A stretch of 64,000 nt of DNA from a virus. Of this stretch, positions 3,382 to 22,378 are shown piece by piece (position 1 is the stretch's first letter; every line of letters starts with the position of its first letter). The stretch spans positions 1-64,000 of the IMG/VR virus record IMGVR_UViG_3300034071_001414; one strand, given 5' to 3'. The notes below the pieces were generated by a model. It was not told the origin of the DNA, did not search any database, and was given only the letters and a program-made list of their open reading frames with translations. Position numbers and translations under genes: made by a program.

Positions 3382-3874
3382 AATTGAACTGGTAAAACAA
3401 GAAATCAAAATGCTCCAATCCAAACTCTCATTTTTGGAAGAACTGGAAAAGACAAAAACACCAGTAGAAGAAGCATACAAAGATTGGTGGGGACAATATC
3501 CTGAATTGGAAACTGATTCCAAGTATGATGATATGAGATGGAGGGGTTTCCAAGCAGGTTTTCAGGCAGCATACGAAGAGAAGGTAAGAGAAGATGATTA
3601 TTATAATGAAGTAAAGTGTGATGAGAAAGATAATCCAAAACCTTTGGATGATGTGGTGAATAGGTTGGTGAAAAAATATCAAGCACAAAAGCTTTTTAAT
3701 AGATTGGTAGATGAACTTGTTTTTGATTTTGATACCTGTAATGATATTGTAGATTTGGTGGAGGACTGGATTTTGGATGAACAAAATTCTGACGGTTCAC
3801 AGAATGTGAACACTGAACTTCTTGTGGAGGGATTTAATGATGCAATACGCAAAATGAAGGAGATGTTGAGGTAA
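3374..3874 (+). CDS. coiled-coil hypothetical protein (166 aa)
   Basis: The first 32 residues form a likely coiled coil (IELVKQEIKMLQSKLSFLEELEK). A region with WRGFQAGFQAAYEEK at about 55-70 and a C-terminal LLVEGFNDAIRKMKEML resemble the helix of the upstream gene. It is acidic and probably cytosolic. Its TAA stop lies inside an AATAAATA late-promoter-like sequence that begins the leader of a homing endonuclease gene. Confidence 0.7.
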   Translation: MTEIELVKQEIKMLQSKLSFLEELEKTKTPVEEAYKDWWGQYPELETDSKYDDMRWRGFQAGFQAAYEEKVREDDYYNEVKCDEKDNPKPLDDVVNRLVKKYQAQKLFNRLVDELVFDFDTCNDIVDLVEDWILDEQNSDGSQNVNTELLVEGFNDAIRKMKEMLR

Positions 3875-3921
3875 TAAATAATAGTGTCTGTTTGGACGGC
3901 AATCTCTACAGACAAAAGATT

Positions 3922-3946
3922 AGGTGCTCTTATGGGCACCTTTTCT
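3922..3946 (+). terminator. intrinsic terminator inside HEG leader 1
   Basis: AGGTGCTC pairs with GGGCACCT (one G-U) around a TTAT loop and is followed by TTTTCT. It would stop early transcription from the array before the homing endonuclease gene. Confidence 0.8.
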
Positions 3947-3948
3947 AC

Positions 3949-3956
3949 TATAAATA
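3949..3956 (+). promoter_or_regulatory. T4-type late promoter TATAAATA
   Basis: A perfect TATAAATA. In T4 this is the whole late promoter core read by the gp55/gp33-modified polymerase. Its expected start falls at the beginning of the right hairpin arm, so late mRNA would escape the hairpin. Confidence 0.75.
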
Positions 3957-3981
3957 ATAATGCCGTCCAAATAGAATAGAA

Positions 3982-4680
3982 ATGAATTATCTAAAGGTTT
4001 ATTGTAACCTCATAAGGAAAGCGGAGAATAGAACTCTTCCTGAAGGTTACACGGAAAAACACCATACCTTTCCAGTAAGTATATTTGGAAAAAATAAAAG
4101 AATTGTAGTTCTTTCTGGTAGAGAACACTATATTGCTCACGCATTATTAGAAAAGATTTGTATAAAAAGGTATGGATTACATCATTATAAAACACACAAA
4201 ATGATAAAAGCATTTTGGTGTATGAATAATCAAATGAAAGAAAGTAGATATGTTAATTCTCATTTATATGAAAGTTCTAAAAAAATATATACTGAAACTA
4301 TAAAAGGTGAAAATCATCATTTTTATGGTAAAAAACATTCATTAGAAACTAAAAGAAAGATTAGTAGACGAGGAGAAAAAAGTCCAAATTATGGTAGAAA
4401 GGCATCAATAGAAACAAGGCAAAAATTAAGTGAAATGCGTAAAGGAAGACCTGGAACATTTGGATTTAGAGGAAAACAACATACAGAAGAACATAAACAA
4501 AAAATGAGAGAACAAAGAGAAGTTAAATCTTTTTGTGTGATTAGTCCTACTGGGGAAATTATTTTTGATAAAAATATGAAGGAATTTTGTAGAAAAAATA
4601 ATTTAGATAGAGGGCATTTTTCTTGTGTTTTAAGTGGAAAAAGAAAATCGCATAAAGGATTTCGTCTTTATCCTGGTTAA
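3982..4680 (+). CDS. HNH-type homing endonuclease with NUMOD3 repeats (232 aa)
   Basis: The N-terminal third carries EKHHTFPVSIFG (about residues 25-36) and REHYIAHALLEKI, the spaced His/Asn pattern of HNH nucleases found in phage homing genes. Residues about 109-175 contain repeated NUMOD3 DNA-binding motifs (GENHHFYGKKHSLETKRKIS and variants). The tail (FDKNMKEFCRKNNLDRGHFS..GK) is an IENR1-like helix-turn-helix. Such enzymes nick or cut a specific site and copy their own gene into it. It is A+T richer than its neighbours, fitting recent transfer, and is probably expressed late from TATAAATA at 3949. Confidence 0.8.
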   Translation: MNYLKVYCNLIRKAENRTLPEGYTEKHHTFPVSIFGKNKRIVVLSGREHYIAHALLEKICIKRYGLHHYKTHKMIKAFWCMNNQMKESRYVNSHLYESSKKIYTETIKGENHHFYGKKHSLETKRKISRRGEKSPNYGRKASIETRQKLSEMRKGRPGTFGFRGKQHTEEHKQKMREQREVKSFCVISPTGEIIFDKNMKEFCRKNNLDRGHFSCVLSGKRKSHKGFRLYPG

Positions 4681-4703
4681 GGACACTTAAAGAACTGGTA
4701 CAG

Positions 4704-4728
4704 AGGCACTTGAAACAGAGTGCCTTTT
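4704..4728 (+). terminator. intrinsic terminator after HEG 1
   Basis: AGGCACT pairs with AGTGCCT around a TGAAACAG loop and is followed by TTTT. The loop also carries the -35 of the next promoter. Confidence 0.75.
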
Positions 4729-4738
4729 GTTGTATAAT
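4710..4738 (+). promoter_or_regulatory. sigma70-like promoter overlapping the terminator
   Basis: TTGAAA (4710-4715), exactly 17 bases, then TATAAT (4733-4738). The -35 box begins at the last base of the left terminator arm and lies mainly in the loop. Downstream is the ACTCTCATACACAAAG sequence shared with 2018 and 2334, then the gene at 4765. Confidence 0.75.
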
Positions 4739-4764
4739 ACTCTCATACACAAAGACACCTCTTG

Positions 4765-4917
4765 ATGACTGAAGACCAAATCAAAATGCTTCGTTTCTTA
4801 ATTCAACAAGAAATTGAAATTGCTCAAATTGATGGTATGGAACACGGTGTTTGGGGTTGGGCAGAAAAACAAGCAGATGAAAATTGGAAGAAGTTTCGGG
4901 AGAGTTTTAATGACTGA
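4765..4917 (+). CDS. small hypothetical protein (50 aa)
   Basis: First gene after the 4710 promoter. It looks helical (MTEDQIKMLRFLIQQEIEIA), with an aromatic middle (HGVWGWAEKQADENW). Its end overlaps the next ATG by eight bases. Unknown function. Confidence 0.6.
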   Translation: MTEDQIKMLRFLIQQEIEIAQIDGMEHGVWGWAEKQADENWKKFRESFND

Positions 4918-5155
4918 AGAAGATAAGTATGCTCTCAAAGAGTTTCTCCGTGCTGTTGGTGTTACTGCTGGTGTCTTTGTTGTCTTTGGTATAATCTTTC
5001 TTGTGATTATTAATCTTTCCACAGGTGGTGATAAACCACTGAATTCTTCATCATTTGAAGTGGTTGATAAGTACAAAGAATGCGATGTAGTAAGATATGC
5101 ACCGCACCAAGTTGCCGAGTACAAGTATTTCCTGTATTGTGAGAAGAACAAATGA
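4910..5155 (+). CDS. single-pass membrane protein (81 aa)
   Basis: The ATG at 4910 gives a short overlap with the upstream stop. Residues about 15-37 (VGVTAGVFVVFGIIFLVIINL) form one clear transmembrane helix after a charged N-terminus, leaving a 40-residue soluble C-terminal part with two cysteines. It is probably inserted in the host membrane; role unknown. Confidence 0.65.
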   Translation: MTEEDKYALKEFLRAVGVTAGVFVVFGIIFLVIINLSTGGDKPLNSSSFEVVDKYKECDVVRYAPHQVAEYKYFLYCEKNK

Positions 5156-5565
5156 ACGATGATATGCCTTGGGTTAATCTCACACAAGAGGAAGTAGAAG
5201 AACTCCGCAAACAAAAATACGAACTGACTGAATACGCCAAAGAGAAACTGAGGAAACTTATGAACAAACCTATTGAAGCAAAAGTATCTGAAGAAGATTA
5301 CCAGAAAGTTCTGGATCTCATGAACAATCAAGAACCTTATCCAGATGCAATGTTTGAGGAAGCAGAGCGTCGTGAAAAGAGTAATCGTGTTCTTCAACGA
5401 TATAATGACTTTCACAATCTTGAAACTTCTGGACTTCCTCACGGCACACCAATCACACCAGAGCATCAACAGATTATTGCAATGGAAAGTATGATTGATG
5501 CTATTCGTTGTGAATATCTCAATCGGGAGTATAATCATATTGCGATTGAGATATTGAGGATTTGA
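5152..5565 (+). CDS. acidic helical hypothetical protein (137 aa), possibly frameshift-shortened
   Basis: It overlaps the upstream stop at ATGA. The product is Glu/Lys rich and helical throughout (for example QEEVEELRKQKYELTEYAKEKL, split over two turns) with no catalytic motif. The frame ends at AIEILRI and stop, but coding-like sequence continues in another frame to 5630 (separate entry), suggesting a one-base change removed about 25 C-terminal residues. Confidence 0.65.
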   Translation: MNDDMPWVNLTQEEVEELRKQKYELTEYAKEKLRKLMNKPIEAKVSEEDYQKVLDLMNNQEPYPDAMFEEAERREKSNRVLQRYNDFHNLETSGLPHGTPITPEHQQIIAMESMIDAIRCEYLNREYNHIAIEILRI

Positions 5566-5630
5566 TTGAACGACTTCGTGAGCAAGCAGATGAGTATCTT
5601 GAAAGAGTGAGGAAGAATAATGAGCGATAA
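5550..5630 (+). pseudogene. out-of-frame coding remnant after the 5152 gene
   Basis: The frame at 5550-5630 reads DIEDLIERLREQADEYLERV and a few more charged residues to TAA. It is a coiled-coil-like stretch with no start codon. It would join the upstream protein in frame if one base were restored near 5550, and its stop would overlap the next ATG as is usual here. Confidence 0.4.
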
Positions 5631-5922
5631 ACCATTCTATCGTTTCTTTGCGATTGATTATTGTGCAACTGGTGAAGGTCGTTCATTCTGGTTGAAGATC
5701 TGTCGCAACTATCAAAGAGTTGATGATAGAGACCGTGAATATGAAAAGTTCGTAAAGTTTGTTGATTGTGATCATTATATGCACGGATTTGATGAACTGA
5801 CGGAGAGAGAGTTTCTGGACAAATATACAAGGTTCATTCCCTATTTTGTCGCAGAAATGATGCAAAGGAAAGACCAACCAGCATTCACTTGGGAAACTCA
5901 TTTACACTTCAATTACTCATGA
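5620..5922 (+). CDS. hypothetical protein (100 aa)
   Basis: It starts at ATGAGCGATAAA. The product is soluble, with DYCATGEGRSFWLKICRNYQ in the N-terminal half and an acidic, aromatic centre (CDHYMHGFDELTEREFLDKY). No known family is apparent. Its stop overlaps the next gene. Confidence 0.65.
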   Translation: MSDKPFYRFFAIDYCATGEGRSFWLKICRNYQRVDDRDREYEKFVKFVDCDHYMHGFDELTEREFLDKYTRFIPYFVAEMMQRKDQPAFTWETHLHFNYS

Positions 5923-6068
5923 ACCTCACATACAGACAACTGATTTTCTTGACAACGGCACTCACAGTGTTTTATGATGAGGTCGCAAAGACTTCTACTC
6001 CTGAAATGAAACAGGAACTCATGGAACTTGGTGAGATTATTCAATCTGCTGCGATGAAAGCAAAATGA
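5919..6068 (+). CDS. small helical protein (49 aa)
   Basis: The ATG overlaps the previous TGA. The N-terminal half is moderately hydrophobic (RQLIFLTTALTVFYDEV) and the rest is an amphipathic Met/Glu/Lys helix. It could be membrane associated. Its TGA overlaps the next ATG. Confidence 0.55.
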   Translation: MNLTYRQLIFLTTALTVFYDEVAKTSTPEMKQELMELGEIIQSAAMKAK

Positions 6069-6265
6069 AACTCTGTAAAGATTGTAAGTATTATCGTAAG
6101 GATTGGGGATCTCATATTTTCCATAGAACTGATTATTGGGATGTTTGTGTTCGTCCCGACCAGGAAAATCCTGTGAGTGGAGGAACAAAAGCACATCGTT
6201 GTGGATATGAAAGAATGTATGATATGTGTTGTGGTCCTGATGGTAAGTTCTGGGAGGCAAAATGA
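6065..6265 (+). CDS. cysteine-rich hypothetical protein (66 aa)
   Basis: It opens with MKLCKDCKYYRKDW, a CxxC followed by an aromatic/basic stretch, and has further cysteines in WDVCVRP, HRCGYE and MCCGP. This resembles small zinc-binding phage proteins that start with CKDCKYY. Exact function unknown. Confidence 0.65.
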   Translation: MKLCKDCKYYRKDWGSHIFHRTDYWDVCVRPDQENPVSGGTKAHRCGYERMYDMCCGPDGKFWEAK

Positions 6266-6432
6266 AAGCATTTAAAATATGTTTTGAGTTGTGGAAACAA
6301 CTGATGACTTATGATGGTCGTGACCCTGAATGGGACTTTGAAGATTATCAAGGTATTTTTTGGGATTATCTAAACTACTCTTACATTAGAACAGAGTGGA
6401 GTATCAAGAGTGAATGGAAGTGGAAAAAATGA
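6262..6432 (+). CDS. tryptophan-rich small protein (56 aa)
   Basis: Contains seven Trp and many Tyr/Phe, with the segment QGIFWDYLNYSYI followed by RTEWSIKSEWKWKK. It is the first of several neighbouring aromatic-rich proteins (6262-7733) sharing FW..L...W-type patterns. ATGA overlaps at both ends. Function unknown. Confidence 0.55.
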   Translation: MKAFKICFELWKQLMTYDGRDPEWDFEDYQGIFWDYLNYSYIRTEWSIKSEWKWKK

Positions 6433-6623
6433 CTAAACTAATAAGGTGGGAAGAAAACCCTGATGAAATTGTGCTGGAAGAAGTGAAGTTGTTTCACCTG
6501 GAGAGTATGAATGAACGAGCACTGTGGATTGGTGTTTATGGCAAGGATGGTAAGATCTACCACTTGAATATTTCTGCAGATGGTGATAGACTGAGGTACT
6601 ATTGGAGCGATGAAACAGTATGA
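6429..6623 (+). CDS. small hypothetical protein (64 aa)
   Basis: I prefer the ATG at 6429 in an ATGA overlap; an upstream in-frame ATG at 6414 lies inside the previous gene. The product appears beta-rich (ALWIGVYGKDGKIYHLNISA), like a small beta-barrel. No family recognised. Confidence 0.6.
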   Translation: MTKLIRWEENPDEIVLEEVKLFHLESMNERALWIGVYGKDGKIYHLNISADGDRLRYYWSDETV

Positions 6624-6850
6624 CCTGGAAAGAATACTGGCAGATGACAAAATGGGAATGGTTTATTGAGGGTTTCCGCAATATTGAGTATATCATTGAT
6701 TGTCGTGTTACTATGAATCATTTTGGATATGATGACTTCTGGGAGGCACTTTCTTGGGGTTGGTGTTGCGAATACATCTATCCTTATGATGATCCATACA
6801 ATCCATACATATCAAAAGAACGCAAACTACGATTGGGAAGATGGTCTTAA
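6620..6850 (+). CDS. tryptophan-rich hypothetical protein (76 aa)
   Basis: The middle reads FGYDDFWEALSWGWCCEYIY, matching the pattern in the flanking aromatic-rich genes (compare FWSSLNGGWLDMNYQW in the next protein). This suggests local tandem duplication and divergence. It ends in a basic tail. Function unknown. Confidence 0.6.
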   Translation: MTWKEYWQMTKWEWFIEGFRNIEYIIDCRVTMNHFGYDDFWEALSWGWCCEYIYPYDDPYNPYISKERKLRLGRWS

Positions 6851-7185
6851 TAAACAAATTGATAATCTCCAATAGATTTCTCCGTTATCGTCCCATATGG
6901 TGGTGGTATAGGTTGATTTCTCACGAAGGATTTAGATTTGATGATTACCATATTTGGGGAGAGTTTTGGAGTTCTCTGAATGGTGGATGGTTGGATATGA
7001 ACTATCAGTGGGAGTTTGAAAAGTTCTGGGGTAAGGGAGCAAAACCTGAGCGTATTGTACTTCCTGCAAAGGACTTTGATGCTCTTGTAGAACGATTGAA
7101 TCAACCACCAGACCCTAAAGTAGTGGAAAGATTGAAAGAGATTATGTCCAAAAAAGCACCTTGGGATGATGACAGAGAAATCTAA
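6841..7185 (+). CDS. Trp-rich protein with a DUF1778-like C-terminal segment (114 aa)
   Basis: The N-terminal half is aromatic (RPIWWWYRLISHEGF, FWSSLNGGWLDMNYQW). The C-terminal segment, about residues 76-110 (LPAKDFDALVERLNQPPDP then KVVERLKEIMSKKAPWD), resembles the toxin-binding tail of DUF1778/TacA antitoxins. No DNA-binding ribbon-helix-helix domain is seen, and the match is by eye only. It could mimic an antitoxin or simply share a helical motif. Confidence 0.6.
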   Translation: MVLINKLIISNRFLRYRPIWWWYRLISHEGFRFDDYHIWGEFWSSLNGGWLDMNYQWEFEKFWGKGAKPERIVLPAKDFDALVERLNQPPDPKVVERLKEIMSKKAPWDDDREI

Positions 7186-7342
7186 AATCTTTTATAACAT
7201 CTGGTGTTGTGCATATCAGCGCCGATATTTGTATAGGGGGACACCAAGAGAACAGAGAGAGCATAGCACAATTCGTATGTGCCTAGATATGAAAGACGTT
7301 AAGTTCTACCAGTTTGATAAGGAGAAACCGCGATATGTTTAG
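7169..7342 (+). CDS. small basic hypothetical protein (57 aa)
   Basis: Two adjacent ATGs (7166, 7169) can start it; both lie in the tail of the preceding gene. The sequence is aromatic and basic (IFYNIWCCAYQRRYLYRG) with a charged C-terminus. Its stop overlaps the next start. Unknown function. Confidence 0.5.
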   Translation: MTEKSKIFYNIWCCAYQRRYLYRGTPREQREHSTIRMCLDMKDVKFYQFDKEKPRYV

Positions 7343-7733
7343 CAAGCCACTTCTGGGAACAAATGCAAAGAAAACCAAACTGTCTTGGTTTGAATACATT
7401 TGGCACTCCTGTATCATTCAGGGGTGGTATAATTGTTGGTATGCTTTCAAGAATTGGGGAGACTTGATGGGAGACAACTATCAAGAGTATGCTCTTCTTG
7501 TATCTGATGATCCATTGGAACAGTGTATTCTTTACTTCTGGGATAGTTTGGAAGATGAGATTTATCCCAAACATTTCTTAGAAAGTTTACTTCAAATGGT
7601 TGATGATATTGAAACTGGTAAAGAAAAAGTAGTCCCACTTGATAAGGATTTCTTTGATAGAATGAAAGAACTTGTTAGGGATATTGAAGTAGATCTTGAC
7701 GAAAAGTTAGAGGAAGACGATGGGACTTTATGA
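7335..7733 (+). CDS. aromatic-rich acidic-tailed protein (132 aa)
   Basis: I chose the ATG at 7335 rather than the TTG at 7314. The N-terminal half (WFEYIWHSCIIQGWYNCWYA, then KNWGDLMGDNYQEYALLV) follows the local Trp-rich pattern. The C-terminal half has PLDKDFFDRMKELVRDIEV, comparable in layout to the LPAKDFDALVERL segment two genes upstream, then a run of acidic residues. It may be a diverged paralogue of the 6841 gene. Confidence 0.6.
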   Translation: MFSKPLLGTNAKKTKLSWFEYIWHSCIIQGWYNCWYAFKNWGDLMGDNYQEYALLVSDDPLEQCILYFWDSLEDEIYPKHFLESLLQMVDDIETGKEKVVPLDKDFFDRMKELVRDIEVDLDEKLEEDDGTL

Positions 7734-8100
7734 TGAAATTCGTTCTTCTTATGACCTGGGAGAACAATTTACCAATGTAGAAATGCAAACCAAAGGCCTT
7801 GCTTGTGCAATGTGTCGTTATTGGATTTCTCCTGATGGTTCTTTGTATGAAATAACCCATAGGGAAACTCATACATTTGAAACTATTGAAGAGGACGATG
7901 AACGTTATGATCCCAAAAAGTTATTCTTGAATTTTGAGTGGATTCCAACAGGAAAACATGGTAAAGTAGAGCCGTGCTATATTACTGATTATGTTGAGGT
8001 TTATCCTACAACTGGCCAGTGGGAGGATTGGCCTCGATTGAAATTACACTTCAAACTTGGAAAACTTATTGATTATGAAGACATCACAGGACAACATTGA
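7720..8100 (+). CDS. hypothetical protein (126 aa)
   Basis: Starts MGLYDEIRSSYDLGEQFTNV, a beginning I associate with small conserved cyanophage proteins. A Cys pair (ACAMCRYW, residues 29-36) and beta-rich segments with acidic loops follow. No enzyme motif is seen. It overlaps genes on both sides, consistent with one operon. Confidence 0.7.
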   Translation: MGLYDEIRSSYDLGEQFTNVEMQTKGLACAMCRYWISPDGSLYEITHRETHTFETIEEDDERYDPKKLFLNFEWIPTGKHGKVEPCYITDYVEVYPTTGQWEDWPRLKLHFKLGKLIDYEDITGQH

Positions 8101-8401
8101 ACTATTTCCTTATGAGTCTTTTGGTGTAAGACTAGAACACATAAATGAAAAAAGAGTCTGTTGGTTTAAGGATGATTATGACTTGCAAAAATATCTAGAA
8201 AGATATAAACTGGACAAGAGAACTATTAAGATTGATTATCGTGATGGACAACCCACTCAACCCAGTAAAAAACACAAGAGAGATTTGGAGCAAAAACCTG
8301 AACCAAAAAGTAACAGAGGTTCAGGTACAAGTAAAGGACGAACCACCCGCTTGGATTCCTCTTCAAACTCTGCTGGCGCTACAAAACGCAAGAAAAAATG
8401 A
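8075..8401 (+). CDS. hypothetical protein with basic low-complexity tail (108 aa)
   Basis: I place the start at the ATG at 8075; a TTG at 8057 is less likely. The first 60 residues (ESFGVRLEHINEKRVCWFKD, then DLQKYLERYKLDKRTIKIDY) look like a compact conserved phage domain. The last 45 are Lys/Arg/Ser-rich and disordered, ending KRKKK, suggesting nucleic-acid binding. Confidence 0.65.
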   Translation: MKTSQDNIELFPYESFGVRLEHINEKRVCWFKDDYDLQKYLERYKLDKRTIKIDYRDGQPTQPSKKHKRDLEQKPEPKSNRGSGTSKGRTTRLDSSSNSAGATKRKKK

Positions 8402-8559
8402 CATCTAAAACTAATTTAATCTTTGCTCTCATGCAAATTGATAATCTCACAAGTCTTCTAGAGGGGAATGAGTACCAAGACTTTCTGTATAGCAAACTGA
8501 TCTCTGCGAGAATAGAATTACAAAGACAATTAAATCATTATGGAACAACAACTAATTGA
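8398..8559 (+). CDS. small helical protein (53 aa)
   Basis: ATGA overlap with the upstream stop. Two helices are likely (LIFALMQIDNLTSLLEG and YSKLISARIELQRQLNHY). Similar small helical proteins are common in T4-like cyanophages. Function unknown. Confidence 0.6.
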   Translation: MTSKTNLIFALMQIDNLTSLLEGNEYQDFLYSKLISARIELQRQLNHYGTTTN

Positions 8560-8755
8560 TGAAGCATTTTATGTGGAAGAAAAAAAATATGGATTGTGGC
8601 AATCACATTATCCTGACGGTAAAGGTATTATCACTTCACTGACTGAAGAAGAATGCGTGAGAGCAACACGTTGGTATTTAAAACAAAAACAAGAGGGTGC
8701 ATTTGACAACGCATCCGAAAAAACTTACGATTCATTTGTTGGAGGAAAACTTTAA
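8540..8755 (+). CDS. conserved-type small phage protein (71 aa)
   Basis: It overlaps the preceding gene by 20 bases in another frame. The segment LTEEECVRATRWYLKQKQEG (residues about 33-52) is a charged amphipathic helix followed by a Lys-ended tail. I regard it as a typical cyanophage small protein, but without a role. Confidence 0.6.
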   Translation: MEQQLIDEAFYVEEKKYGLWQSHYPDGKGIITSLTEEECVRATRWYLKQKQEGAFDNASEKTYDSFVGGKL

Positions 8756-8934
8756 TGACACTACGCACTTTTACTGACAAAAATGGAAATGTTTGGAATT
8801 GGGAAGAATCTGCAGCAACTGTAGAAGCACTTAAAAACTTTCATGCAGGAAATTATGAGGGACCTCTATATGCTCCACACCCAGATTTGAATAATGAAAA
8901 TAAAACTAACACCCAATCAACAGATGTGGGCTAA
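8755..8934 (+). CDS. small hypothetical protein (59 aa)
   Basis: The ATG shares the last base of the previous TAA. The product begins MTLRTFTDKNGNVWNWEESA and ends in an Asn/Thr-rich tail. The next gene begins inside it in another frame. Unknown. Confidence 0.5.
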   Translation: MTLRTFTDKNGNVWNWEESAATVEALKNFHAGNYEGPLYAPHPDLNNENKTNTQSTDVG

Positions 8935-9067
8935 TATCTTTCAGTGTGCTGTTGAAAGGTCTAATCTTTATTTTCAAGATAAAGACCTTGATAGACATGC
9001 AAGAGAGCATACAACTGTTGTATTAGCACTTCAAAAAGGAGAGCAATTTTGGAAAGAACTACTCTAG
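8894..9067 (+). CDS. small hypothetical protein (57 aa)
   Basis: Starts 41 bases inside the previous gene. The protein is helical and charged (QMWANIFQCAVERSNLYFQD), with C-terminal VLALQKGEQFWKELL. A good AAAAGGAGAG Shine-Dalgarno for the next gene lies within its 3' end. Confidence 0.5.
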   Translation: MKIKLTPNQQMWANIFQCAVERSNLYFQDKDLDRHAREHTTVVLALQKGEQFWKELL

Positions 9068-9228
9068 AATATCCATATCATGTTCTTGATAAAACTACTC
9101 CTTGGTATGAGTGGTTATGTTATTGTGAAGTGTGCCATCAACTAAATGCTCCAAGACAACCATCTCTGGGGCGTTTTATGTCATATAGACGTTACTTAAA
9201 ATCTGTTGGACTTCTTGATAATGATTAG
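9049..9228 (+). CDS. hypothetical protein with TTG start (59 aa)
   Basis: No ATG is available near the 5' end. A TTG at 9049 sits about seven bases after AGGAG, an unusually strong ribosome-binding site for this region, so I infer a TTG start. The product has CYCEVCHQLNAPRQPSLGRF, a possible metal-binding CxCxxCH followed by a basic stretch. Its stop overlaps the next ATG region. Confidence 0.5.
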   Translation: MERTTLEYPYHVLDKTTPWYEWLCYCEVCHQLNAPRQPSLGRFMSYRRYLKSVGLLDND

Positions 9229-9448
9229 AAATTTTATTGAATGGTTTATTTCTCCCTCGGAAAAATTTGCAATTGAAGATGACGATGTTTATTCAAAATT
9301 GGTTGAATTGCAAGAACGTATTGAAATTCTTGAAGCAGAAAATATAGAGACAAGTAACTGTCTTTATGAACTTTCTAATTCTATCGATGCAGTTGATACT
9401 CGTATAGATATTCTAACTCTTGAAAAATGGAAAGATGGGAATGTATGA
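9221..9448 (+). CDS. coiled-coil protein (75 aa)
   Basis: I use the ATG at 9221. After a hydrophobic start (MIRNFIEWFISP) residues about 23-65 form a clear heptad coiled coil (LVELQERIEILEAENIETS and onward). It probably forms a dimer or trimer and may touch the membrane through its N-terminus. Role unknown. Confidence 0.6.
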   Translation: MIRNFIEWFISPSEKFAIEDDDVYSKLVELQERIEILEAENIETSNCLYELSNSIDAVDTRIDILTLEKWKDGNV

Positions 9449-9735: not shown

Positions 9736-9737
9736 TT

Positions 9738-10927: not shown

Positions 10928-10939
10928 TAAACTGTCACA

Positions 10940-15361: not shown

Positions 15362-15420
15362 AACCCACTTGACGAAGACGACAACAACAACTAAAATAAA
15401 GAGGTAATTTACAACAGACG

Positions 15421-15651: not shown

Positions 15652-15653
15652 TT

Positions 15654-16293: not shown

Positions 16294-16499
16294 AGAAGAA
16301 TAGCAACTGGTGGAGATGGTGGGCAAAGTCAATTGGAGAGAAAGCATCCAAATGCGATAAAGAAAGCGACACGGTTGCGGTCATTCGCACCGTGATTTTT
16401 GCTACTTACTTGATTACAAACTGTTTTATCATTTATGGTGTACTGAGAACTCATCACTTTCCAACACAACCTAAAGTTGTTAGATGTTCGATAAAATAA
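16290..16499 (+). CDS. membrane protein with Trp-rich N-terminus (69 aa)
   Basis: A basic aromatic start (MKKNSNWWRWWAKSIGEKAS) is followed by one transmembrane helix (VIRTVIFATYLITNCFIIYG, residues about 30-49) and a short basic tail. The TAA stop lies within an AATAAATA late promoter for the next gene. Confidence 0.6.
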   Translation: MKKNSNWWRWWAKSIGEKASKCDKESDTVAVIRTVIFATYLITNCFIIYGVLRTHHFPTQPKVVRCSIK

Positions 16500-16502
16500 A
16501 TA
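16495..16502 (+). promoter_or_regulatory. late promoter AATAAATA
   Basis: AATAAATA overlaps the TAA stop of the membrane protein and stands 20 bases before the internal-protein gene at 16522. It is one base from TATAAATA. It would place this virion-like gene under late control inside an otherwise early region. Confidence 0.6.
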
Positions 16503-16521
16503 TCTAAAAAGTATAAGTAAA

Positions 16522-16920
16522 ATGCTGACATTTAGAGAGTTTTATACTATTTGCGAAGGGAAAAAACCAAATGTTCACCCCTATGCAGTTCCTGGTACTT
16601 ATCAAGAAAAAGATGGTGTAAAGACATATACTCTCAAGAGAGATGATGCACCAAAGAGAGAACCAATCAAGTCTGCAAAGAAAATAACCAAAATGCTTGA
16701 TAAGCAGGGTGGAATTGGTGGTAAAGCAATCAAGAAAGCAAAGAAGATTGAAGAACAACATCCAATAATGCAACCTAATGAGTATAACAAGCAAATTGCG
16801 CGTCAATCTGTTCGTTGGAAGGGAATGCAGATCCGTCAGGCACACGGAGAAATGGAGCACGAAGCAGGAGCACAACTAGCAGCAAAGAAAGCAAGAATGA
16901 AAGCAATTATGAGTCGTTGA
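16522..16920 (+). CDS. basic protein with capsid-targeting-like N-terminus (132 aa)
   Basis: The first residues MLTFREFYTICEGKKP resemble the T4 internal-protein targeting sequence (MKTYQEFIAEA). YTICE|G fits the gp21-type cleavage rule of an aliphatic residue, any residue, Glu, then a small residue. The rest is Lys/Ala/Gln-rich and strongly basic, suiting a DNA-packaged protein. With a late promoter upstream, I infer an internal head protein injected with DNA. No enzymatic domain is seen. Confidence 0.65.
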   Translation: MLTFREFYTICEGKKPNVHPYAVPGTYQEKDGVKTYTLKRDDAPKREPIKSAKKITKMLDKQGGIGGKAIKKAKKIEEQHPIMQPNEYNKQIARQSVRWKGMQIRQAHGEMEHEAGAQLAAKKARMKAIMSR

Positions 16921-16926
16921 TACTTA

Positions 16927-16960
16927 CTTGGATCCTCTAAAGTGTTCTAGTAATGTAAGC
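16927..16960 (+). promoter_or_regulatory. GATC promoter repeat, copy 2
   Basis: TTGGAT, CCTCTAAAGTGTTCTAG spacer, TAATGT. The downstream ATG is at 16973 and no ATG lies in the element. Confidence 0.75.
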
Positions 16961-16972
16961 ACAAAACAAATT

Positions 16973-17125
16973 ATGGACCGTTTCGACGATATTCAAATTG
17001 AAGAGTTTTCTTCTTTTGATTTTGTTGAGGAAATGAATGAAGGTCTCTTTGATGAAGATGAAGAAGGTGAACAACCTTCAAAGTTTAACCTGAATGAGTA
17101 CATCAACGGCAATTATGATTATTGA
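16973..17125 (+). CDS. very acidic small protein (50 aa)
   Basis: The start ATG is 17 bases after the -10 of repeat copy 2. Composition is extreme in Asp/Glu (FDFVEEMNEGLFDEDEEGEQ). It may be a DNA mimic or a charged partner of a basic protein; this is speculative. It ends two bases before the next ATG. Confidence 0.55.
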   Translation: MDRFDDIQIEEFSSFDFVEEMNEGLFDEDEEGEQPSKFNLNEYINGNYDY

Positions 17126-17127
17126 TT

Positions 17128-17307
17128 ATGACTGCTGATACTTATACTTTTACTGGTGATGCTGTTACCTTCCTTGGTTTGGTTGGTGTTATCTCAGCGT
17201 TTTTTATTGTTGTTACTTCTTTTCGCAGGTTTTTCAACAGTCCTTATAACATTCGTATAACTCCTAAAGTTAATCAAAAAACCACTACTGAAACTACTGA
17301 ATCCTGA
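17128..17307 (+). CDS. single-pass membrane protein (59 aa)
   Basis: I use the ATG at 17128, just after the upstream stop. Residues about 11-33 (AVTFLGLVGVISAFFIVVTS) form a membrane helix followed by FRRFF and a Thr/Lys-rich tail. Function unknown. Confidence 0.6.
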   Translation: MTADTYTFTGDAVTFLGLVGVISAFFIVVTSFRRFFNSPYNIRITPKVNQKTTTETTES

Positions 17308-17311
17308 ACTA

Positions 17312-17530
17312 ATGACTCAAACTGTAAATGTTCTGCCTCATCTTAACGAACTGAAAGATGCTTGGCGTAAGCAAGATTTCAAATTCACTGCATCACAACA
17401 AGAGCAATATGATATTTTGATTGCTGCTCGTCGTGAGCGTGTTCATTACTTCTATGAGAACAATCTAGTGTTCAAAGGTTCTAAAGCAGCAGCAGATAAG
17501 GCACTTGGTCTACTTGAGGATGCTGACTGA
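17312..17530 (+). CDS. conserved-type small phage protein (72 aa)
   Basis: Helical and charged: LNELKDAWRKQDFKFTASQQ, then YDILIAARRERVHYFYEN and a C-terminal KAAADKALGLLEDAD helix. It resembles small cyanophage proteins. Its TGA stop overlaps a GATAAATA late-promoter-like box. Confidence 0.65.
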   Translation: MTQTVNVLPHLNELKDAWRKQDFKFTASQQEQYDILIAARRERVHYFYENNLVFKGSKAAADKALGLLEDAD

Positions 17531-17536
17531 TAAATA
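17529..17536 (+). promoter_or_regulatory. late promoter GATAAATA
   Basis: GATAAATA overlaps the TGA stop of the upstream gene and stands 25 bases before the second capsid-targeting-like gene. Both internal-protein candidates thus share an overlapping-stop late promoter. Confidence 0.55.
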
Positions 17537-17560
17537 ACTCAAAGTAGTTTTTAGATACAG

Positions 17561-18145
17561 ATGAAAACCTTTCAGGAGTTTATTGTCGAAGCATACGATA
17601 AGGAGGTTATGGGTTCTTCTCAAATTAGAAGAACTGGTGAAGGTGGACGTATCGGTGCGGATCGTCGTAAATCAACTCCTGAAAGGCGTAGGGTTAAGGC
17701 AGTTGGTGGTGGTAAAACTGAACCAGTTGCCTATAAAGATAGAAAGGATATTGGTACTCAAAGACAAGCATCCACAAGAGTTCAACAACCAACACAAGAA
17801 CGTGGAAGTGCTGATGTAAAAGCAAAGGCAGCAGAAGCAGCAAAAGAAGAAAGAAAGAAAGCAGCATTAGCAAGAATTGCTGCTAAGAAAGCAGGTGGAT
17901 CTGCACCAGCAGCATCTCAACCTAAAGCAAAGGAAGCATCTGCAACTGCAAGCAAACTTCTATCCAAAAAGAAAGAAGAAAAACCTGTAAGTCCTGATTA
18001 TAAACCAGCAAAAGCATCTGGTTTAAGCAGACAAGAAAGATTGAAAGTAACCAGACAAGGTGAAGCAAAACTGAGAGATTTGGTTCTTAAATCAACAGGC
18101 AAGACATCTGAAAAGCAATTAAAGCATCGCTACACTTCTCGCTGA
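17561..18145 (+). CDS. predicted internal head protein with T4-like targeting sequence (194 aa)
   Basis: The start MKTFQEFIVEAYDKE is almost the T4 IPIII targeting peptide (MKTYQEFIAEA), and IVE|A matches the gp21 cleavage consensus. The rest is a long Lys/Ala/Arg-rich helix (AKAAEAAKEERKKAALARIA, residues about 86-105) and basic disordered segments, as expected for a DNA-packaged, injected protein. A late promoter lies upstream and repeat copy 3 follows. The targeting role is strong by analogy; any activity after injection is unknown. Confidence 0.7.
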   Translation: MKTFQEFIVEAYDKEVMGSSQIRRTGEGGRIGADRRKSTPERRRVKAVGGGKTEPVAYKDRKDIGTQRQASTRVQQPTQERGSADVKAKAAEAAKEERKKAALARIAAKKAGGSAPAASQPKAKEASATASKLLSKKKEEKPVSPDYKPAKASGLSRQERLKVTRQGEAKLRDLVLKSTGKTSEKQLKHRYTSR

Positions 18146-18151
18146 TACCTA

Positions 18152-18185
18152 CTTGGATCCTCTAAAGTGTCTCAGTAGTATAAGC
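18152..18185 (+). promoter_or_regulatory. GATC promoter repeat, copy 3
   Basis: TTGGAT, spacer with CCTCTAAAGTGT, TAGTAT followed by AAGC; the ATG is lost here, so the gene must start at 18198. Confidence 0.75.
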
Positions 18186-18197
18186 ACTGAGCACTAA

Positions 18198-18431
18198 ATG
18201 ACCTTCACTGTTACTGACAAACCCCAAATCATTAACGGCATTGAGCACACTGTCACTGCAGTTAATGGTTTGGACCGTGTTGAAATCAATAACAAACTGC
18301 ATGACATTGGCGACCAAATTATGAAACTGCGGATGCAACAAGATGCACTCGTTCAGATGCGTAACCTGATTGACCGACAATGTGAAATCAGTGAAATGGA
18401 TTCCTTGTTTGATGAGATGTTTGGTAGTTGA
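18198..18431 (+). CDS. small helical protein (77 aa)
   Basis: The first 25 residues form strands (TFTVTDKPQIINGIEHTVTA) and the rest is helical with Met/Gln/Leu heptads (IGDQIMKLRMQQDALVQMRN), suggesting a coiled-coil dimer. Start is 17 bases after the repeat -10. Role unknown. Confidence 0.6.
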   Translation: MTFTVTDKPQIINGIEHTVTAVNGLDRVEINNKLHDIGDQIMKLRMQQDALVQMRNLIDRQCEISEMDSLFDEMFGS

Positions 18432-18443
18432 TATAGTGTCGCC

Positions 18444-18480
18444 AGAGCAGTCTAGATGCCTCTAGAAGTGCTCTATTTTA
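18444..18480 (+). terminator. hairpin terminator
   Basis: Nested stems AGAGCA/TGCTCT and TCTAGA/TCTAGA around TGCC, followed by ATTTTAGT. The T-run is short, so termination may be partial. The 77-base gap to the next gene holds no clear -10/-35 pair. Confidence 0.55.
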
Positions 18481-18508
18481 GTCTTTAGATACCAAACCAC
18501 TTGAACTG

Positions 18509-18700
18509 ATGAAATACATTAAAGTCCCCGAAACTGCACTTGAAAGGCTAATTGAAGGACTTGAAAGTGCAGTGAATGTGTGCTATACTGCTCCTAACAA
18601 TCCTGGTATTGAAGGGTATCCTTATGCGACTGGATATTCTCGCTCTGCGATGCAACAAGTTATCAAAGACCTTCAATCGCTGAAGACTCAGGCAAAGTGA
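18509..18700 (+). CDS. small hypothetical protein (63 aa)
   Basis: N-terminal helix (VPETALERLIEGLESAVNVC) and C-terminal helix (AMQQVIKDLQSLKTQ) separated by a Gly/Tyr/Pro-rich loop (GIEGYPYATGYSRS). The layout is that of a small helical hairpin. Function unknown. Confidence 0.6.
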   Translation: MKYIKVPETALERLIEGLESAVNVCYTAPNNPGIEGYPYATGYSRSAMQQVIKDLQSLKTQAK

Positions 18701-18706
18701 CTGTAA

Positions 18707-18740
18707 CTTGGATCCTCTAAAGTGTCCTTATAATATGATG
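18707..18740 (+). promoter_or_regulatory. GATC promoter repeat, copy 4
   Basis: TTGGAT, spacer CCTCTAAAGTGTCCTTA, TAATAT, the strongest -10 of the family. It overlaps three consecutive ATG codons of the helicase gene. Confidence 0.75.
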
Positions 18741-19982
18741 ATGAACCAAATGCAAATCCAACTCCGTCCGCATCAGGAACGTGGCGTTGCTGCGATGGCA
18801 AAGTATAACAAAGGTCAGGTGATTGTCCCCACTGGTGGTGGCAAGACTCTGAAGATGATCTATGATGCTCTGCGTGAGTTGCAGTCTGAAACTCCCCAGA
18901 CTATTGTAGTGGTTGCTCCTCGCATTCTGCTGGCAGAGCAACTCTCTGCAGAGTTCCTTGAGTTTATCACCAATGCTGCGGTGCTTCACATTCACAGCGG
19001 TGAAACTCATCACGAATCCTCTACTCATCCTCGTGTAATCCGTAAGTGGGTTGATGCCAATGCTGACAATCACAAACTGATTGTAACCACCTATCACTCT
19101 CTGTCTCGCCTTCAAGCAGCAGAGATTGATGTGGATACGATTTACTTTGACGAGGCACATAACAGCGTTCAGCGTCACTTCTTCCCTGCAACAGAGCACT
19201 TTGCTGCTAATGCACGACGCTGCTACTTCCTGACGGCAACCCCGAAACATTCCCTTGCTATGGGTAAACCTGGGATGAATGATGCGTCTGTTTATGGTCA
19301 GGTAATCTGCAAAGTTCCTGCTCCTGAACTTGTTGAGGGTGGATACATTGTGCCCCCTAAAGTTATCGTCAAGCAACTGGAGATGGTGAAGGGCAAGCAG
19401 ACCAACTTTGACCGCGATGCAGAGAATCTGCTGGAAACGATTGATGAGAACAGCGTTGGTAAGATTCTGATTTGTGCTAAGGCAACCAAGCAAATCGTGT
19501 CTCTGGTGTCTGAAACTGACTTCTGCCACGAACTACAGCAGCGTGGTTACTCTTGGATGTATATCACTGCCAAGACTGGTGCAGTGATTGATGGCAAGAA
19601 AGTGAACCGTGAGGTATTCTTTGACACTCTCTCTGCCTGGGGTAAGGATAACGACAAGAAGTTTGTTGTTCTACACCATAGCATCCTAAGTGAGGGCATC
19701 AATGTGTCTGGACTTGAGGCAGTGTTGTTTATGCGGAATATGGACTTTATTGGCATTTCCCAAACTATCGGACGCTGCATCAGGTTGCATCACGATGATG
19801 CTCGTAATCTTGCTGCTGGCAATATCCAACCAGGCGCTCTGGATTCCTATACCAAATCGTTCGGTCTTGTGTGTATTCCAGTTTACTCAAAAGTAGGAAT
19901 TGCTACTGCTCGCTCGGTGCAGGCAGTTGTTGATACGATTTTTGAAAAGGGAGAACCTGCTGTGTCGGTGGTGAGGCGGTGA
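18735..19982 (+). CDS. DEAH-box superfamily 2 helicase (about 415 aa)
   Basis: Motif I is VPTGGGKT (about residue 33), motif II DEAH in YFDEAHNS, motif III TATP in FLTATPK, and motif VI QTIGRCIRL, in the right order for two RecA-like domains. It should unwind or remodel nucleic acid with ATP; T4 UvsW and cyanophage helicases of this type act in recombination and fork restart. ATGs at 18735, 18738, 18741 and 18750 are all possible starts; the repeat -10 favours 18750. It is more G+C rich than its neighbours and is followed by a strong terminator. Confidence 0.85.
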   Translation: MMMNQMQIQLRPHQERGVAAMAKYNKGQVIVPTGGGKTLKMIYDALRELQSETPQTIVVVAPRILLAEQLSAEFLEFITNAAVLHIHSGETHHESSTHPRVIRKWVDANADNHKLIVTTYHSLSRLQAAEIDVDTIYFDEAHNSVQRHFFPATEHFAANARRCYFLTATPKHSLAMGKPGMNDASVYGQVICKVPAPELVEGGYIVPPKVIVKQLEMVKGKQTNFDRDAENLLETIDENSVGKILICAKATKQIVSLVSETDFCHELQQRGYSWMYITAKTGAVIDGKKVNREVFFDTLSAWGKDNDKKFVVLHHSILSEGINVSGLEAVLFMRNMDFIGISQTIGRCIRLHHDDARNLAAGNIQPGALDSYTKSFGLVCIPVYSKVGIATARSVQAVVDTIFEKGEPAVSVVRR

Positions 19983-20016
19983 GTCTCACCCCAGTCTCAC
20001 TGAGACCTCAGTGTTC

Positions 20017-20041
20017 ATCGGGGTCAAAACCCCGATTTTTC
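20017..20041 (+). terminator. strong intrinsic terminator
   Basis: ATCGGGG pairs with CCCCGAT around TCAAAA and is followed by TTTTTC. It ends the helicase transcript. The next 70 bases hold only a weak GCAG/CTGC hairpin and no confident promoter. Confidence 0.85.
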
Positions 20042-20113
20042 TTCAATTCTACTGCAGAGGTGTCATAGGTCATCCGCTGCAATCAAATCACCGATTTTTT
20101 AGAAAGTGTAACT

Positions 20114-20293
20114 ATGAAACAAGGATTCACGATGTTCAAAGACACATATGCTGCAATTCCTTACGGGAATCAGTATCTCATCATCTATAATGGTCAGCAA
20201 CTTGATAAACTTTGTAGGACTGAGAGTTCTGCCCGCAAATATATCACAGACCACAGAAAAAATTGTTCTAATGCAAAATTACCTATTGAGTAA
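20114..20293 (+). CDS. conserved-type small phage protein (59 aa)
   Basis: Begins MKQGFTMFKDTYAAIPYGNQ, strand-rich (YLIIYNGQQLDKLC), with a basic helix (SSARKYITDHRKN) at the end. I associate this kind of start with T4-like cyanophages. Its stop is just before an AATAAATA box that begins the second HEG leader. Confidence 0.6.
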   Translation: MKQGFTMFKDTYAAIPYGNQYLIIYNGQQLDKLCRTESSARKYITDHRKNCSNAKLPIE

Positions 20294-20344
20294 TTAAATA
20301 AATAATAGTGCCTGAAGTTGACTGACATCTCTACAGGTGAGAGG

Positions 20345-20364
20345 GGAGCAGAGATGCTCCTTTT
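20345..20364 (+). terminator. intrinsic terminator inside HEG leader 2
   Basis: GGAGCA pairs with TGCTCC around GAGA, followed by TTTT. It would stop upstream transcripts before the endonuclease gene. Confidence 0.8.
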
Positions 20365-20368
20365 CTTG

Positions 20369-20376
20369 TATAAATA
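20369..20376 (+). promoter_or_regulatory. T4-type late promoter TATAAATA
   Basis: Perfect TATAAATA five bases before the right hairpin arm. The expected start is at or just inside that arm, so late mRNA would lack the left arm. Confidence 0.75.
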
Positions 20377-20405
20377 CTTAAGTCAGTCAACTTAAGAGCA
20401 GAACT

Positions 20406-21080
20406 ATGGTAAATCCATACAGATTTTATACTTATGCTTATTTGCGTGAGGATAGAACTCCTTATTATATTGGGAAGGGAACTAATAAAAGATTATATGT
20501 TAGGGGAAAAACAGATATAAAACCACCAAAAGATAAGTATAGAATAATCTATCTCAAACAAAATCTAACTGAAGAAGAAGCATTTAAACACGAAACTTAT
20601 ATGATTGCGGTATTCGGTAGAAAAGATTTAGGAACTGGTATTCTTCATAACAGAACTAATGGTGGTGATGGATCTTCGGGAGTGGTAGTAAGTGAGGAAA
20701 CTAAATTGAAAATGAGCAAAACAAGAAAAGGAAAATCTTTTAGTGGGGAGCATAAAAGGAAAATAAGTGAGGCAAAGAAACAACAAACAGAAGAAACGAG
20801 AAAGAAGATAAGTCAGGCAAATAGGGGCAAAAAACGTAGTGAAGAACAAAGGAAGTTAATGAGTGAAAGAGTAAAGGGGAGAAAACACTCTGAAGAAACT
20901 AAAAAGAAAATGAGTGAAAAAAGAAAGGGAAGAGTTTTTTCTGAAGAACATAAACAAAAAATAAGAGAAGCACTTTCTGGTATAAAACGTTCAGAAGAAA
21001 CTAAGAAAAAGATTAGTGAAGCATCAAAGGGAAGAACTCCTTGGAATAAAGGTGTATCAATGGGCAAACTTCCTTTGTGA
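20406..21080 (+). CDS. GIY-YIG homing endonuclease with NUMOD3 repeats (224 aa)
   Basis: The N-terminus FYTYAYLREDRTPYYIGKGT (about residues 7-26) is the GIY-YIG nuclease signature, and AFKHETYMIAVFGRKDLGTG supplies the downstream catalytic Glu region. Residues about 95-215 hold six or seven NUMOD3 repeats (SEETKKKISEASKGR and variants) that grip target DNA. It should cut one specific site and spread its own gene. Only the module order and NUMOD3 repeats link it to the HNH gene at 3982. Expression is expected late. Confidence 0.85.
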   Translation: MVNPYRFYTYAYLREDRTPYYIGKGTNKRLYVRGKTDIKPPKDKYRIIYLKQNLTEEEAFKHETYMIAVFGRKDLGTGILHNRTNGGDGSSGVVVSEETKLKMSKTRKGKSFSGEHKRKISEAKKQQTEETRKKISQANRGKKRSEEQRKLMSERVKGRKHSEETKKKMSEKRKGRVFSEEHKQKIREALSGIKRSEETKKKISEASKGRTPWNKGVSMGKLPL

Positions 21081-21086
21081 TACTAA

Positions 21087-21120
21087 CTTGGATCGTCCAA
21101 AGTGTCCTTGTAGTATAACC
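21087..21120 (+). promoter_or_regulatory. GATC promoter repeat, copy 5
   Basis: TTGGATCGTCC variant, spacer ending CCTTG, TAGTAT then AACC. GATC is kept although the following bases differ; no ATG in the element. Confidence 0.75.
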
Positions 21121-21132
21121 ACTCATCTCTGA

Positions 21133-21375
21133 ATGACTTTTTACTGGAAGTTCTTTGATACTCTTGTCTATAATGTTGCTACTATCTGTGCATTTGTTGT
21201 TGCAGTGAGTCAGTTCCTGATTCGCTCTTTCAATGAGAACGATGGAAGCAATAAAGTTCGCAAGTTTATCAACCAAACTCTTCTGTTTGTGAATCGTTCT
21301 ACCTCTACAGTGTATAACTTCGTTAATGAAGATACTCTGCCTGAAGTAAAGAAACCCAAGCGTAGTGCCGCTTGA
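21133..21375 (+). CDS. membrane protein (80 aa)
   Basis: Starts 17 bases after the repeat -10. Residues about 10-34 (LVYNVATICAFVVAVSQFLI) form a membrane helix, then a charged region and a basic C-terminus (KKPKRSAA). Role unknown. It is followed by a terminator with a built-in promoter. Confidence 0.6.
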   Translation: MTFYWKFFDTLVYNVATICAFVVAVSQFLIRSFNENDGSNKVRKFINQTLLFVNRSTSTVYNFVNEDTLPEVKKPKRSAA

Positions 21376-21386
21376 TAAACTAGCAC

Positions 21387-21420
21387 AGGAGCACTTGCAA
21401 TTTAGCGTGTGCTCCTTTAT
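21387..21420 (+). terminator. intrinsic terminator
   Basis: AGGAGCAC pairs with GTGCTCCT around a 14-base loop, followed by TTATTG. The T-run is interrupted. The loop contains the -35 of the next promoter. Confidence 0.7.
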
Positions 21421-21423
21421 TGT
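21395..21423 (+). promoter_or_regulatory. sigma70-like promoter inside terminator loop
   Basis: TTGCAA (21395-21400), exactly 17 bases, TATTGT (21418-21423). This is the third module where the -35 sits in the terminator loop and the -10 just after the T-run. It serves the gene at 21445. Confidence 0.65.
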
Positions 21424-21444
21424 ACCTTTGTTCTTGAAACTCCA

Positions 21445-21648
21445 ATGATTTTTCTCACTGTTCCTGGTCACGGTTGCGTTTATACTCTCTCGCAAGAAGA
21501 TGGAGATGAGTTGTACTATGCACCCATTATGCAAGATGGTAGTGTAAATCTAGAGGAGTTTGCACCTGTAGATCTTGACGCTGCAGATATGGACGAAATG
21601 GAACTGTTTGACATTCGCAATCGTCTTCAAAAACTGGTTGAGGTTTGA
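21445..21648 (+). CDS. conserved-type acidic small protein (67 aa)
   Basis: I use the ATG at 21445, shortly after the promoter. Strand-rich start (MIFLTVPGHGCVYTLSQEDG) and an acidic C-terminal helix (MDEMELFDIRNRLQKLVEV). It is similar to small cyanophage proteins. Function unknown. Confidence 0.6.
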   Translation: MIFLTVPGHGCVYTLSQEDGDELYYAPIMQDGSVNLEEFAPVDLDAADMDEMELFDIRNRLQKLVEV

Positions 21649-21693
21649 TTATAATAAATAATGATGCTTATGTTTGGTCGCACAAGCACATTG

Positions 21694-21717
21694 GAGGGGC
21701 AGAAATGTCCCTCTTTT
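21694..21717 (+). terminator. intrinsic terminator inside HEG leader 3
   Basis: GAGGGGC pairs with GTCCCTC region (GAGGG/CCCTC plus G-U and C-G) around AGAAAT, followed by TTTT. Confidence 0.8.
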
Positions 21718-21719
21718 GA

Positions 21720-21727
21720 TATAAATA
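21720..21727 (+). promoter_or_regulatory. T4-type late promoter TATAAATA
   Basis: Perfect TATAAATA five bases before the right hairpin arm, as in leader 2. Confidence 0.75.
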
Positions 21728-21751
21728 ATCAAGACCAAACATAAAGCAGTT

Positions 21752-22378
21752 ATGAATAAAATTATCCTTTTACGGGATGAAATAATTTCCGTATACAAAC
21801 AAACTTACTCTGTTATTCAAGTTTTAGAGCATTTTGGTTATTCTCGAAAGAGTGTAGAAGGAAGAAAACAAATAACTGACATTCTAAAAGAAGAAGGTAT
21901 ATTTGAGGGATTGACTGGTCCTAATGTCATAAAAATGAAGCATCAAAGGGCAAAGAAAACTATGCTCGAAAAATATGGTGTAGACAACTACTCTCACACT
22001 GAATGTGGATCTAAAAATCTACATAATCACAGACAAAAAAGTTATTTTCCTGTAATAGAAGAGTTTAGAAAATATCAGAGTGAAGTTAATAAAGAAACAA
22101 AAAAGGCAATGAGAAAGATAAAAGATAAACCAACTCATTGTGAATACCTTGGTATCAAGTTTGTAGATGATAAAATAGCAAATCCTAACGACCAATTAAA
22201 AAGGACAATAGACCATAAGAAGTCGGTTTATAATTGTTGGTTAGAGGGAATATCTGCAAAAGAAGCATCTTCGCCAGATAATCTTGCTTGGGTTTGTAGA
22301 TACATCAACAGTATAAAAGGAAATGCTGATTATGATGACATTAAACACATTTTTCCCAAAATAAAAGACAAATTGTGA
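21752..22378 (+). CDS. HNH-like homing endonuclease (208 aa)
   Basis: The N-terminal 60 residues form a helix-turn-helix-like region (VIQVLEHFGYSRKSVEGRKQ). A central AKKTMLEKYGVDNYSHTECG is typical of phage and plasmid endonucleases. The C-terminal part has KRTIDHKKSVYNCWLEG, then SSPDNLAWVCRYINSIKGN, a His..Asn..Asn/Lys arrangement like HNH/His-Me nucleases. Together with the shared leader and A+T-rich insertion I infer a homing endonuclease; the exact subclass is uncertain. Confidence 0.7.
   Translation: MNKIILLRDEIISVYKQTYSVIQVLEHFGYSRKSVEGRKQITDILKEEGIFEGLTGPNVIKMKHQRAKKTMLEKYGVDNYSHTECGSKNLHNHRQKSYFPVIEEFRKYQSEVNKETKKAMRKIKDKPTHCEYLGIKFVDDKIANPNDQLKRTIDHKKSVYNCWLEGISAKEASSPDNLAWVCRYINSIKGNADYDDIKHIFPKIKDKL

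Follow-up and report, generated by a model that had tools for sequence, protein, structure and literature searches.

The DNA analysed here is a 64-kb stretch (64,000 nucleotides, referred to below as the window) of the 98.5-kb viral record IMGVR_UViG_3300034071_001414 in IMG/VR, and its nearest DNA matches are the T4-like cyanophages S-SRM01 (Kyanoviridae) and S-PM2. The window contains three homing endonuclease genes, each preceded by a leader that combines two complementary arms with late promoter motifs and an intrinsic terminator. Profile matches assign all three genes to endonuclease families, the third weakly, and no match to the second was found among solved structures. The genes are as follows.

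3982..4680, + strand: homing endonuclease, NUMOD3 / I-HmuI-like, phrog_655 (family match), behind leader 1
20406..21080, + strand: GIY-YIG-type endonuclease with a GIY-YIG N-terminus and NUMOD3 repeats, phrog_314 (family match), behind leader 2
21752..22378, + strand: HNH / endonuclease-VII-like endonuclease, weak phrog_1035 match, HNH-like DH...N...N by eye, behind leader 3

A first-pass annotation, made from the sequence alone, had described the leaders at 3873, 20297 and 21653 as sharing one plan, and this plan is confirmed in all three: a AATAAATA box, the left arm (here seen to lie in a small hairpin), a terminator (called in leaders 1 and 3, folded in leader 2), a TATAAATA box, the right arm and the ATG. 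The exact inverted arms lie at 3891-3901/3961-3971 in leader 1 (11 bp), 20315-20326/20382-20393 in leader 2 (12 bp) and 21668-21679/21733-21744 in leader 3 (12 bp). The individual features are listed below, with promoters and RNA starts being predictions.

3873..3880, + strand: leader 1, upstream late promoter AATAAATA (motif); predicted left RNA start 3886
3886..3913, + strand: leader 1, small hairpin GTCTG (3886-3890)/CAGAC (3909-3913) whose loop contains the left arm (fold, covariation)
3922..3947, + strand: leader 1, intrinsic terminator (terminator call)
3949..3956, + strand: leader 1, second late promoter TATAAATA (motif); predicted mRNA start 3962
3961..3977, + strand: leader 1, right arm (3961-3971) and ribosome-site box AGAAT (3973-3977) (inverted repeat, fold, covariation)
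20297..20304, + strand: leader 2, upstream late promoter AATAAATA (motif); predicted left RNA start 20310
20310..20338, + strand: leader 2, small hairpin GCCTG/CAGGT whose loop contains the left arm (fold, covariation)
20345..20367, + strand: leader 2, intrinsic terminator (fold and the terminator criteria used for the leader family)
20369..20376, + strand: leader 2, second late promoter TATAAATA (motif); predicted mRNA start 20382
20382..20399, + strand: leader 2, right arm (20382-20393) and box AGAGC (20395-20399) (inverted repeat, fold, covariation)
21653..21660, + strand: leader 3, upstream late promoter AATAAATA (motif); predicted left RNA start 21666
21666..21687, + strand: leader 3, small hairpin GCTT/AAGC, its 5' strand overlapped by the left arm (fold, covariation)
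21693..21717, + strand: leader 3, intrinsic terminator (terminator call)
21720..21727, + strand: leader 3, second late promoter TATAAATA (motif); predicted mRNA start 21733
21733..21747, + strand: leader 3, right arm (21733-21744) and box AAAGC (21743-21747) (inverted repeat, fold)

When wobbles and flanking pairs are counted, the arms of the three leaders reach about 12-15 bp (12-14 bp had been proposed at first), and the ATG follows 7-12 bases past the right arm. The left half of each leader folds independently into two hairpins. The late mRNA leader predicted from the second promoter, which lies between the arms and would therefore leave the left arm out as had been suggested, has an open 5' end in folding. 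No Rfam family reaches its gathering score anywhere in the window, and no published description of a promoter-hairpin-terminator-promoter leader was found in the literature.

As a check, the first-pass annotation had asked for similar leaders before other homing genes. Pattern scans of IMG/VR, three in all, the genomes of two isolates and protein searches made afterwards together gave 195 different leaders from public viral sequences, with 81 arm cores. Most of these (176 of 195) precede five endonuclease groups defined by their N-termini, four GIY-YIG-like and one HNH. Among the genes behind the other 19 are more HNH, HNH_3 and endonuclease VII proteins, frames that are broken or could not be classified, and TnpB twice, once intact and once as a fragment. 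The leader thus serves HNH and GIY-YIG families alike, as had been claimed. The isolate S-SRM01 has six leaders, with arms that are all different, and all six stand before endonuclease-type genes, of which one is annotated as a hypothetical protein and one as translation initiation factor 2; other endonuclease genes of this phage have no leader. The label translation initiation factor 2 is carried by GIY-YIG-type genes in S-SRM01 (gp114), B23 (gp45) and Sf-CH5 (SfCH5_200) and is probably wrong. The intact TnpB (IS605 OrfB) lies in L157 at 8052-9245 on the minus strand behind a leader at 9246-9355 and has OrfB_IS605 and Cas12f1-like domains, and the fragment follows a leader in L320. In L298, two near-identical leaders in opposite orientations (12324, plus strand; 14262, minus strand) precede short unclassified frames, one of which has a NUMOD3-like PWNKGK motif; this pair is possibly an assembly artefact or a set of decayed cassettes. 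No orphan left halves, separated from an endonuclease half, were found in the searched loci.

Chance alone produces 1-9 inverted repeats of at least 11 bp with a spacing of 20-150 in 64 kb, and the repeats alone are not significant. It is their position within the leader that carries the evidence, and comparison between leaders shows the arms to be real. For this comparison, 130 leaders were selected by an upstream TAAATA, a small hairpin and a second ATAAATA, ignoring the arms. A MAFFT alignment of 78 leaders was dropped, as the arm and terminator registers were out of step, and base pairs were counted from element-anchored coordinates. In all 130 leaders the arms pair with their own partners (net pairing 8-15), while arms exchanged between leaders give a median of 5. 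The median duplex energy is -13.5 kcal/mol for a leader's own arms and -2.0 kcal/mol for swapped ones. The mispairs within the arms comprise 35 G.U and only 1 A.C, which argues that the arms pair at the RNA level. The earlier view that the stems differ completely while pairing is kept therefore holds for the pairing; the sequences are less distinct than described, with GTTTGG common to the arms of leaders 1 and 3. That RNA pairing of the arms would mask the endonuclease start, as had been proposed for read-through RNA, is well supported and highly probable.

The left half of the leader has further conserved parts that had been overlooked, namely the small hairpin enclosing the left arm and the role of AATAAATA as a promoter. 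Conservation begins at [AC]TAAATA, with almost no information in the bases upstream, and the box lies exactly 5 nt ahead of the small hairpin in 127 of 135 leaders; its variable position is A in 108 and C in 25. In T4 the late box opens at -13, roughly one turn ahead of the start, and position -12 is a C in Aeh1 (PMC2988020). The S-PM2 late motif is NATAAATA (PMC2984593). With a T4-type box at -13, the predicted starts are the first bases of the small hairpin and of the right arm. In S-SRM01, N[AC]TAAATA occurs at 39 sites upstream of 62 structural or other late-type genes, versus 4 sites upstream of 80 early-region genes, and its choice of A or C agrees with that of the leaders. Motif, spacing and distribution mark the upstream AATAAATA as a predicted late promoter in its own right. 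The left arm is thus more than read-through sequence, and late RNA is predicted to start also from before it, contrary to what had been supposed on both points; late starts of this kind had been named by the first-pass annotation as refuting its reading.

The small hairpin is likewise maintained. Its 5' strand appears as GCCTG, ACCTG, GCCTT, GCTTA, GTCTG, ATCTG, GCTCT and ACCTA, and the 3' strand changes to match; at the second stem nucleotide there are 181 C-G and 7 T-A pairs (Fisher 2e-11) and at the third 156 C-G and 27 T-A (Fisher 5e-26), with shared ancestry being ignored in both tests. The same 5' strand is also complementary to the box just ahead of the endonuclease AUG, as in leader 1, where AGAAT complements the 5' end of the left RNA. 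GCC and ACC types go with AGAG[C/T], GCTT with AAAGC and GCTCT with AGAAGC, and GTCTG and ATCTG strands are mostly paired with AGAAT. For the 5'-terminal base of the left RNA against the box we count 77 G-C, 54 A-U, 38 G-U and no A-C pairs (p 2e-19, shared ancestry ignored); an earlier count gave 74, 50, 26 and 0. At the second base the picture is more mixed, with C-A in 11 of 169, partly since the box was located by a simple pattern. Judged by these counts, the 5' strand of the left RNA has two maintained alternatives, folding back on its own RNA or pairing at the start of the mRNA. In addition, an intrinsic terminator is present in 112 of the 130 leaders. With its own promoter (by motif and spacing), its own terminator and an independent, covarying fold complementary to the ribosome site, the left half looks like a late small-RNA gene of ~50 nt.

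These features suggest that the leader may be a self-contained control module that travels with the mobile endonuclease gene. The late promoter N[AC]TAAATA would start an RNA of ~50 nt, with a 5' hairpin displaying an antisense loop of 11-14 nt and an end at the intrinsic terminator. Right after the terminator, the second consensus late promoter TATAAATA would start the endonuclease mRNA, the first bases of which complement the loop. Pairing of the loop with the mRNA 5' end would open the small hairpin, and the freed 5' strand of the short RNA would then base-pair to the ribosome-site box, which lies some 5-10 nt ahead of the AUG, and block translation; in read-through transcripts the same pairing would form in cis. 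The likely role is to keep endonuclease synthesis low and dosed in the late phase, as a threshold or copy-number control. We infer the existence of the short RNA, its action in trans and its purpose from these sequence patterns, and regard a separate, functional late antisense RNA as the best explanation and a somewhat probable one, because the dedicated promoter, the terminator and the maintained self-hairpin would have no role in a switch that acts in cis only. A simple 'early off, late on' reading leaves these parts of the left half unexplained, and a separate antisense RNA does explain them. The broader proposal remains tentative: a family of trans-acting small RNAs, each specific for its mobile endonuclease (GIY-YIG, HNH, EndoVII-like, TnpB), that may act in T4-like cyanophages as a copy-number or co-infection brake, in the form of a same-strand antisense module swapped between unrelated nucleases.

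The strongest alternative, considered less likely, is a cis switch as in T4, in which read-through RNA hides the ribosome site, the mRNA from TATAAATA is translated and a separate left RNA has no function. I-TevI, segB, mobE, e and soc are known to follow this logic (PMC2988022, PMC3014915). Full leaders, with both arms present, fold to about -36 to -42 kcal/mol. T4-type hairpins (I-TevI, I-TevII, I-TevIII, segB, Aeh1 mobE; e, soc) likewise have complementary arms around a late promoter, such that the long RNA hides the ribosome site and the late mRNA does not (PMC2988022, PMC3014915). In the window, too, the arms could hide the ribosome site and a late promoter motif lies between them, so that the T4 logic invoked by the first-pass annotation holds for RNA pairing over the start. 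It does not hold for the left arm, which, unlike that of T4-type hairpins, has its own late promoter, a covarying hairpin and a terminator; with a late promoter motif 5 nt ahead of its hairpin, it is not confined to upstream early or middle transcripts. The right arm also differs: it forms the extreme 5' terminus of the predicted late mRNA and is not a segment over the AUG. A cis switch accounts neither for a dedicated late promoter that starts at the first base of the hairpin, nor for a terminator that would already stop read-through, nor for a hairpin that is maintained in competition with the long pairing.

Plain T4-type leaders do occur in related cyanophages and make a cis-acting ancestor plausible. 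In a related GIY-YIG family, examined by a protein-anchored search, arms flank the late promoter TATAAATA in 31 of 36 unique leaders, with the left arm in a hairpin loop, and 4 of the 36 are of the window type. These 31 leaders, one of which is carried by the isolate Sf-CH5, differ from those of the window in having no conserved upstream promoter and no separate terminator, and in a right arm that runs into the ATG. Judged by sequence, the T4 logic exists in these cyanophages, with a promoter and a terminator as additions in the window type. As a second type of leader, cyanophage GIY-YIG genes in L225 (1320-1390) and L445-L498 carry a hairpin GTGGGCAGCAAC-arm-GTTGCGTAAGTCCCAC, then a late promoter and a matching arm into the ATG, and the hairpin stem varies in matched pairs.

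Several observations weigh against a separate antisense RNA. The left arm of the plain class sits in its own hairpin with no conserved promoter upstream, and a cis-only role is therefore possible. Arms on the same contig are no more different from each other than expected by chance (58 pairs, P 0.40; 41 pairs, P 0.75), so that there is no sign of the selection against cross-talk that one might expect of an RNA acting in trans. One arm class, GTTTGTTCGCA, with about 13 leaders, has the terminator stem and a poor U-run. Finally, the covariation counts are uncorrected for shared ancestry.

Much less probable is a DNA-level element, with the arms serving as an operator for the endonuclease or another protein, or as a recombination signal. 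I-TevI does repress itself at an operator over its late promoter (PMC2988022), and the cassette moves as a unit whose left end coincides with the leader; however, arm mispairs are G.U and not A.C, 24 of the 81 arm cores are common to at least two endonuclease families, and the 5' strand of the small hairpin covaries with the ribosome-site box. An insulated promoter with incidental arms, although a terminator and late promoter ahead of an inserted gene would be useful alone, is refuted for the arms by their specific pairing in 130 of 130 leaders and has hardly any probability left.

IS10 RNA-OUT and R1 CopA are antisense RNAs that control mobile or copy-number genes. The putative left RNA resembles them in directing the recognition loop of a short RNA at the mRNA 5' end and ribosome site of a gene that drives spread. 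RNA-OUT and CopA come from the opposite strand of their target, whereas here the RNA would come from the same strand, just upstream, as an inverted copy. CfrI of S-PM2, an RNA of ~225 nt from the opposite strand that links psbA and an endonuclease gene (Millard 2010 via PMC2984593, PMC12197685), is likewise a cyanophage antisense RNA tied to a homing endonuclease gene; as far as it is described in these later accounts, it has no architecture in common with the window leaders. According to a 2010 review, T4 had yielded no functionally characterised small regulatory RNA acting in trans, and related genomes might be a source of candidates (PMC3014915). Comprising about 195 leaders and 81 arm cores, and with testable base pairs, the leader family is a concrete candidate for a small RNA of T4-like phages and a source of many naturally matched RNA pairs.

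The cassettes appear to be mobile, as relatives have empty sites at all three positions. At site 1, relatives run directly from about 3870 to 5152. At site 3 only a few bases lie between the equivalents of 21648 and 22411, which indicates that the cassette starts at or just before the leader promoter. At site 2 the leader-2 cassette splits a small gene that is uninterrupted in the relatives L368, L374 and L366.

20114..20293, + strand: small gene split by the leader-2 cassette

The uninterrupted form ends ...DHKKGVSMGKLPV. In the window, the endonuclease C-terminus KGVSMGKLPL (21045-21080) is the tail of the invaded gene, and the interrupted gene has a new tail, NCSNAKLPIE, that resembles the original one. 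Leaders also move between genes: leader 3 recurs elsewhere at 92-97% identity, with homology stopping just past the start codon, and the sharing of arm cores by several gene families points to swapping of leaders. This suggests that unrelated selfish endonuclease families share one swappable RNA brake. In addition, a repeated intergenic element, CTTGGATCCTCTAAAGTGTCCTTATAGTAT, occurs at 21084-21116 and 22411-22445 and at about ten places in L365; it lies before many small genes and is possibly an early promoter.

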